From: Hypomyces perniciosus
Taxonomy: Eukaryota; Ascomycota; Sordariomycetes; Hypocreales; Hypocreaceae
Direction: 5' to 3'
DNA: 64,000 nt
NCBI GenBank assembly: GCA_008477525.1
Contig: SPDT01000001.1
Location: 186,001-250,000, forward strand
Shown: positions 50,470 to 50,662 of the stretch, piece after piece
How the letters are laid out: every line of letters begins with the position of its first letter
Position numbering within the stretch: the stretch's first letter is position 1
Made by a program: the position numbers and the translations under genes
The notes under the pieces: model-generated
What the model was told of the DNA's origin: nothing
Database searches by the model: none
Seen by the model: the letters and a program-made list of their open reading frames with translations, nothing else

Positions 50470-50476
50470 AAAAAAA
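50470..50476 (-). terminator. Pol III T7 terminator after the initiator tRNA
   Basis: Seven consecutive T on the minus strand begin six nucleotides after A73; a second run of five T follows at 50465-50461. This is the normal Pol III stop arrangement for a tRNA gene. Confidence 0.85.
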
Positions 50477-50508
50477 GAGAGTAGCAATTGCACGTTTCGA
50501 TCGTGCGA

Positions 50509-50562
50509 CTGTGTAATTGTTAGATTGTGTCGTTGTAAACTGAGGACCTAGGAGGTGCTTAC
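50509..50562 (-). other. tRNA intron 2 (54 nt, spliceosomal type)
   Basis: It starts GTAAGC, has a TCTAAC branch match (CTAAC at 50523-50519) and ends ACACAG. It interrupts the variable loop between its third and fourth nucleotides (AGG and TC). Confidence 0.85.
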
Positions 50563-50582
50563 CCTCCGGGTTATGAGCCCGG

Positions 50583-50637
50583 CTGGAGCAAGTTAGCATT
50601 GGGATTCGAACTTGTGAGCAACTGTAGTCAAACATAC
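50583..50637 (-). other. tRNA intron 1 (55 nt, spliceosomal type)
   Basis: It starts GTATGT, has a GCTAAC branch-site match (CTAAC at 50596-50592) and ends CAG. The branch A to AG distance is about ten nucleotides. Size and signals match introns of the protein genes in this window (for example 54 nt in nsdD, 55 nt in gtaA). It separates the D arm from the anticodon arm. No bulge-helix-bulge substrate for the tRNA endonuclease is apparent around it. Confidence 0.85.
50602..50612 (-). promoter_or_regulatory. Near-consensus B box inside tRNA intron 1
   Basis: AGTTCGAATCC differs from the B-box consensus GGTTCGANTCC only at the first base. It lies 32 nt downstream of the A box, close to normal A-B spacing. 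The gene's own T-arm copy (CGATCGAAACG, 50505-50495) deviates at both outer positions, so the intron could supply the TFIIIC site. That use is inferred. Confidence 0.5.
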
Positions 50638-50644
50638 CGCGCTT

Positions 50645-50655
50645 CCACTGCGCCA
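50645..50655 (-). promoter_or_regulatory. Internal Pol III A box of the initiator tRNA gene
   Basis: TGGCGCAGTGG at tRNA positions 8-19 matches the A-box pattern TRGYNNANNNG. It lies wholly in exon 1. Confidence 0.8.
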
Positions 50656-50662
50656 AATTGCT

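Follow-up and report, generated by a model that had tools for sequence, protein, structure and literature searches.

Putative spliceosomal introns in the initiator and some serine tRNA genes of Hypomyces perniciosus

Background

Textbook and review accounts separate tRNA splicing from the spliceosome. Canonical nuclear tRNA introns lie at position 37/38 and are removed by the SEN endonuclease and ligase, and the word "spliceosome" is absent from the tRNA-intron review PMC4090602. A locus in the fungus Hypomyces perniciosus raises the question of whether this separation holds throughout. In a stretch of 64,000 nt, called the window here (G000:C3:186001-250000, in a genome of 44.0 Mb and 23 contigs), an initiator tRNA gene is interrupted twice by segments that look like mRNA introns, neither of them at 37/38. 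By which machinery would such a gene be matured, and is it alone in its genome?

Results

A split initiator tRNA gene in the window

The initiator tRNA gene lies on the minus strand, from 50662 to 50482 exactly, and consists of three exons and two introns, listed here in the order of the transcript.

50638..50662, minus strand: exon 1, 25 nt, nucleotides 1-26 in standard numbering (ending with G26), identical in all five genomic copies
50645-50655, minus strand: A-box-like motif TGGCGCAGTGG, inside exon 1
50583..50637, minus strand: intron 1, 55 nt, GTATGT..TGCTAAC..CAG, predicted branch A at 50593, carried by two of the five paralogues
50563..50582, minus strand: exon 2, 20 nt, nucleotides 27-46, with the anticodon CAU and the initiator GGG/CCC pairs
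50509..50562, minus strand: intron 2, 54 nt, GTAAGC..ATCTAAC..CAG, predicted branch A at 50520, carried by all five paralogues
50482..50508, minus strand: exon 3, 27 nt, nucleotides 47-73, with the T arm (A54/A60) and the 3′ acceptor strand
50494-50502, minus strand: B-box-like motif GATCGAAAC, inside exon 3
50470..50476, minus strand: T7 run just downstream of the tRNA, likely Pol III terminator

The labels of TGGCGCAGTGG and GATCGAAAC follow the A-box and B-box consensus. Joining the exons produces a 72-nt molecule in which the acceptor (7/7), D (4/4), anticodon (5/5) and T (5/5) stems are fully paired. Eukaryotic initiator tRNAs are recognised by a set of hallmarks, and these (CAU, A1:U72, A54/A60 and the GGG/CCC pairs) are all present in the spliced form of each of the five copies. 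The initial annotation had proposed that the removal of GT..CTAAC..CAG segments of 55 and 54 nt would leave a fully paired 72-nt initiator tRNA(CAU), without naming a strand, and every hallmark was confirmed on the minus strand. It had also placed the insertions after nucleotides 26 and 46 and not at 37/38, which was borne out here and again by four paralogues elsewhere in the genome that repeat the architecture.

ARAGORN returned tRNA-Met(cat) from this locus only after the removal of both introns. It read the unspliced sequence as a spurious Ser(tga), found nothing when intron 1 alone was taken out, and called a spurious Pyl when only intron 2 was. When none, one or two GT..YTRAY..AG segments were removed, a single variant out of 14 yielded a tRNA, and this was the version of the initial annotation; the same procedure on 400 first-order Markov shuffles of the locus (12,217 variants) gave a tRNA with one or two such removals in none of the 400. 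Scans of the whole window reported no tRNA, either with ARAGORN or with Rfam at the gathering threshold. Standard tRNA finders had been expected to miss the gene. This does not hold for every tool and every member of the family, since two of the three initiator copies with one intron are detected by the Rfam tRNA model in scans of their short loci.

Free folding of the unmodified spliced 72-mer gave a minimum-energy form with acceptor and T arms, other D and anticodon pairings and no full cloverleaf, and the fold of the initiator precursor was not unusual (z -0.68). The middle exon of the two-intron gene is just 20 nt long, which we count, like these folding results and the spacing of 2 nt between the two introns of Ser(GCU) described below, against the spliceosomal reading. 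As a separate observation, intron 1 (window 50583-50637) contains the T-loop/B-box-like word AGTTCGAATCC, and intron 2 of three paralogues (L010, L012 and L013) contains the similar type of word TTCGAAACG; both look as if copied from a tRNA T arm, or kept for TFIIIC.

Five initiator genes with identical exons and diverged introns

The 13-nt initiator anticodon arm GGGCTCATAACCC was matched five times genome-wide, compared with one match for the reversed control pattern, and all five matches were split initiator genes with differing flanks (L009, which is the window gene, and L010-L013, on contigs C3, C3, C4, C5 and C23). The initial annotation had held that an uninterrupted functional initiator gene elsewhere would speak against it, and this anticodon-arm search of the 44-Mb genome found none. 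A DNA search of the genome with the 72-mer returned exon pieces only, from three of the five loci, and missed the two-intron copies at first look.

The spliced 72-nt exons are identical in all five genes. Intron 2, after nucleotide 46, is present in every one of them with copies 71-98% identical, and intron 1, after nucleotide 26, is present in two (L009 and L012) with copies 89% identical. Exon 1 and exon 2 are joined without intron 1 in L010, L011 and L013, and because of these three intron-1-free copies the limits of intron 1 are known to within 1 nt (one equivalent shift); no copy is free of intron 2, and its boundaries are therefore drawn from the pairing of the tRNA and from the splice signals. 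A T run directly follows each of the five genes. The locus had been described as a single gene with two introns, a description that fits the window but gives way, for the genome, to a gene family joined by serine tRNAs, with intron 1 in only two of the five initiator copies.

Three other accounts of these copies were rejected. An intron at the ordinary place, as ARAGORN would have it, leads to bogus and differing readings of the five copies (Ser, none, none, Val and Arg). A lone pseudogene is at odds with the finding of five genes whose exons are identical. The spread of intron 1 by an introner family was discarded because the 24-nt 3′ part of the intron, searched with up to three mismatches, occurs only in the two initiator copies.

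Similar introns in serine tRNA genes

A Ser T-arm pattern gave 17 matches, comprising six Ser(GCU), four Ser(AGA) and one Ser(UGA) gene, three repeat-family pieces and three matches on organelle-like stretches. GT-AG-type introns were present in six of the 11 serine tRNA genes found: 4/6 Ser(GCU), 1/4 Ser(AGA) and 1/1 Ser(UGA). In the four Ser(GCU) genes concerned (L029, L030, L142 and L333), a GTANGT..CACTAAC..YAG intron of 53-56 nt separates nucleotides 35 and 36 of the anticodon; the remaining two copies, both in L027, are without it. The six 5′ halves were confirmed by a second pattern. All six have identical exons and an ordinary 14-15-nt intron at 37/38, from which the GT-AG intron is separated by 2 nt. 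Two of the six copies are free of the GT-AG intron, and comparison with them allows no shift of its limits. The four GT-AG introns are 61-86% alike, yet GTANGT, CACTAAC and YAG are retained in all of them, and such invariant exons with kept signals form the pattern expected if the tRNA and the splice signals were both under selection. With the GT-AG intron removed in silico, ARAGORN called L030 and L333 Ser(gct), each with the usual intron of 15 nt, but gave Asp(atc) for L029 and L142, which were assigned to Ser(GCU) via their family-identical exons.

The Ser(AGA) gene L071 has a 55-nt GTGAGT..CTAAT..CAG intron, likewise at 35/36, and is read as Ser(aga) by ARAGORN when spliced; because the other three of the four Ser(AGA) genes are without a GT-AG intron, its limits are known up to shifts of 2 nt. 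In L128, a 57-nt GTTAGT..CACTAAC..CAG segment lies in the D arm of a gene that, by eye, has paired acceptor (7/7), D (3/3), anticodon (5/5) and T (5/5, one G:U) stems as well as a further intron of some 15 nt at 37/38. ARAGORN read this locus as Arg(ccg) both before and after splicing and there is no intron-free paralogue, so that its reading as Ser(UGA), made by eye, is the least certain of the eleven genes. The case for the initiator genes does not depend on the three serine genes that ARAGORN misreads (L029, L142 and L128). A GT-AG intron and a 37/38 intron thus occur together in five genes, namely the four Ser(GCU) genes and, as read by eye, L128.

Intron signals compared with mRNA introns of the same genome

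The 13 introns in the 11 tRNA genes are all 53-57 nt long and lie at 26/27, 46/47, 35/36 or in the D arm, none of them at 37/38. Each begins with GTNNGY, the branch motif is CTAAC in 12 and CTAAT in one, its branch A lying 10-14 nt upstream of the 3′ end, which is CAG in eight and TAG in five. Intron-free paralogues place seven of the 13 within 0-2 nt. For comparison, homologues were used to place introns in two protein genes of the window, and the five of GT-AG type measure 47-70 nt and have the form GTAAG/GTGAG...YAG; a sixth, apparently GC-AG, in a GH3 gene was left out of this set. By 5′ site, branch point and 3′ end, the tRNA introns have the features of U2-type introns, and their length is like that of the organism's own mRNA introns. 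Against this, the branch sites of the five protein-gene introns are looser than those of the tRNA introns (CTCAC, CTAAA, CTAAG or CTGAG near the end). When mRNA introns of the window were sought by joining open frames, four candidates were obtained.

A strict GTANGT..RCTAAC..YAG scan gave 13 matches, of which eight were 50-69 nt long, compared with about 0.6 in Markov controls, and five of these eight were tRNA introns; the scan covered 282,623 bases of window and fetched loci, overlaps included, and this set is enriched for tRNA loci. In the window itself, a loose GT..CTAAY..AG scan showed no excess (12 matches against 12.9 in controls), and the strict form gave one match against 0.5. TTTT is absent from all 13 tRNA introns (about 710 nt, including related copies), which is weakly consistent with Pol III transcripts, TTTT being a Pol III stop.

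The GC-AG candidate (GCACGT...CAACTAG) lies at about 39460-39390 of the window, on the minus strand, in a GH3 glucosidase gene beside four GT-AG introns. Among the 120 matches listed per protein, the first named relatives of three window proteins belong to the Hypocreales: for this GH3 protein Trichoderma (76%), for MYG1 Trichoderma, Pochonia and Fusarium (77-78%), and for the glutamate-cysteine ligase Ophiocordyceps (76%), with an 89% match in Stylonectria that spans 68% of the query and one of 78% in Colletotrichum, which belongs to another order. The fungus is accordingly likely to be of the Hypocreales, with no close named relative among these matches.

tRNA surveys

A survey with the B-box-like pattern GGTTCGANTCC, covering T-loop families other than Ile, Trp and elongator Met, gave 164 matches, of which 158 were listed and two more recovered as L118 and L333; of the 153 distinct sequences examined, 106 have every T-arm pair in place. 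It was this survey, together with the Ser T-arm pattern, that revealed the serine introns. Genes for Ile, Trp or elongator Met are absent from this partial census. Beyond the 11 split loci, ARAGORN made 130 distinct calls, not all of them correct, and 82 of these had an intron of 8-51 nt. A GGTTCAATYCC survey gave 45 matches, 22 of which fell within 20 stretches and some of the others in stretches already covered, with seven ordinary tRNA genes in five of the 20, and a GGTTCGATCCC survey, covering all 11 of its matches, gave three ordinary tRNA genes. In viral and prokaryote contigs, intron-2 junction patterns had no match; the serine junction pattern matched seven viral contigs, and the plain initiator arm was common in viral contigs among the matches listed, which were taken for putative prokaryotic-type initiator tRNAs.

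Several loci seen in these surveys are of interest in their own right. A tRNA-Lys(CTT)-like gene is repeated every ~2.9 kb in L122 (G000:C2:1-10000, on a contig of 15,331 bases). Within the first 17 kb of the nuclear-sized contig G000:C8 stands a cluster of organelle-type tRNA genes resembling the one on C17 (145 kb), either because organelle DNA was copied into the nucleus or because of a misjoin in the assembly. The three repeat-family pieces, L039 (C4:744493), L103 (C8:2982041) and L134 (C16:170654), come from a single family and have in common a tRNA-like start (GGGGCTGTRTRGCGCAGTRGTCAAGCTCACAGG), a T arm like that of Ser tRNAs and a CCTACAAATAGACCAATAA tail; this family resembles tRNA-derived short interspersed elements. 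The tRNA-Ala(AGC) gene L099 (G000:C8:947542, minus strand) has a 51-nt ordinary-place intron, compared with 29-37 nt in the other Ala(AGC) genes seen.

Discussion

The anatomy of these genes, its recurrence in 11 of them and the identity of the initiator exons beside diverged introns are evident at the level of sequence. Given these genes and the signals that they carry, the initiator and some serine tRNA genes of this fungus very probably contain spliceosomal introns, with precursors that would be matured by the spliceosome. The initial annotation had written that the tRNA "must" be matured in this way; the signals in 13 introns and the failed bulge-helix-bulge test favour its view, and we strongly infer spliceosomal removal of all 13, but "must" overstates a strong argument from sequence.

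One alternative is removal by the tRNA splicing endonuclease and a ligase at ectopic sites. Ectopic introns, several per gene and outside 37/38, are described in PMC4090602 for archaea, a red alga (Cyanidioschyzon merolae) and nucleomorphs, and the introns reported here resemble them in both respects; 25/26 and 45/46 are even among the insertion points given there for archaeal ectopic introns. The enzyme is also very likely present in this fungus, considering that 82 of the 130 ARAGORN calls outside the split loci have introns at the ordinary place. According to PMC4090602, however, the archaeal and C. merolae introns depend on a bulge-helix-bulge and the tRNA endonuclease, the nucleomorph mechanism being called unknown, whereas here the full 4-bp central helix of that motif was found at none of the 13 introns (rigid test; best 3/4 pairs), so that bulge-helix-bulge sites were rejected. 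Furthermore, GTNNGY, CTAAY and YAG are present in 13 of 13 introns and an endonuclease system needs none of them. We consider removal by the endonuclease very unlikely.

It is extremely unlikely that the split initiator genes have decayed or lost their activity while a normal gene escaped notice, hidden by a gap in the assembly or by an anticodon arm of unusual sequence. The serine genes lend this some colour, since their GT-AG introns occur only in some copies (4/6 and 1/4) and insertions in single copies are, according to PMC4090602, usually taken as marks of pseudogenes. Decay is nevertheless hard to reconcile with initiator exons that stay identical in five of five copies with different flanks while their introns are only 71-98% (intron 2) and 89% (intron 1) alike, and an uninterrupted copy was found neither by the anticodon arm nor by the 72-nt sequence. 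Just as improbable is the proposal that the loci belong to Pol II transcripts, the normal home of spliceosomal introns, with introns there by chance and the tRNA a passenger: the loci are eleven separate ones, the introns fall within the tRNA boundaries, and T runs come right after all five initiator genes.

For two of the serine families alone, Ser(GCU) and Ser(AGA), one could suppose that the insert is part of one long ordinary intron, with the anticodon changed or read differently, as in the unspliced ARAGORN readings of L029 (tRNA-Arg(gcg), 68-nt intron), L030 (Ser(gct), 71-nt intron) and L071 (Ser(aga), 55-nt intron), but this is barely conceivable: a Ser tRNA with GCG would insert serine at arginine codons, the reading changes from copy to copy within a family and with the intron limits that are set (Asp, Trp), GT..AG removal leaves family exons and a 14-15-nt intron in four of four, and the initiator genes would be left unaccounted for. 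Self-splicing introns have a catalytic core and are usually longer than 200 nt; introns of just 53-57 nt do not fit group I or II, and the Rfam gathering matches at the 11 split loci were to the tRNA family only.

With the spliceosome as the preferred machinery, the following course may be envisaged. Pol III, whose involvement is suggested by the T runs and the internal box-like motifs, would make a core precursor, 181-182 nt long where there are two introns and 126-127 nt where there is one. U1 and U2 would recognise the strong signals through intron definition, and the introns would leave as branched lariats via the spliceosome, splicing preceding or accompanying end trimming; the spliced tRNA would then fold and pass through trimming, modification and export. 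In the five serine genes with both a GT-AG and a 37/38 intron, the spliceosome would act first and the ordinary tRNA endonuclease second, because removal of the GT-AG intron restores the anticodon loop or the D arm. In Ser(GCU), where the GT-AG intron lies 2 nt before the 37/38 intron, the precursor would become an endonuclease substrate only after spliceosomal splicing.

Ordinary 37/38 introns and those described here both occur in this genome. Like canonical nuclear tRNA introns, those described here interrupt nuclear tRNA genes, yet they differ from the 37/38 introns (here 8-37 nt, one of 51) in position, length and signals. They also differ from the ectopic introns of archaea and C. merolae in having spliceosomal signals and no matching bulge-helix-bulge. 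mRNA-type introns are known in U6 of other fungi as well as in that of fission yeast. The latter, cited in PMC10484740, is the nearest precedent: there, too, spliceosomal-type introns sit in a short noncoding Pol III RNA, but the host RNA here is a tRNA. In this genome, U6 matches its family model unbroken in both copies found. In our assessment, a spliceosomal intron in a Pol III RNA is known, and tRNA as the host class was not expected. The earlier statement that no described case was known agrees with our search, in which no report of spliceosomal introns in tRNA genes was found in the titles and abstract starts of the open-access literature, a scope that takes in few subscription journals and preprints.

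Conclusions

Since five of five initiator genes are split, translation initiation would depend directly on splicing. Quite probably, then, this fungus has no translation start without the spliceosome, every initiator gene needing one or two spliceosomal events; its tRNA genes would have been invaded several times, with even the anticodon split, and some serine pre-tRNAs would pass through the spliceosome and then the endonuclease. These would then form a new class of tRNA intron and might couple translation to the capacity for splicing. The cell's most essential tRNA appears to be spliceosome-dependent, with an intron-free backup not found. Such genes would offer a route for spliceosomal introns into Pol III genes, multi-copy genes with and without the intron make intron gain datable, and the serine precursors would be a natural substrate for two splicing systems in one 150-nt RNA. 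For fungal genomes at large, the finding would mean that initiator tRNAs can go missing from annotations for a simple reason.
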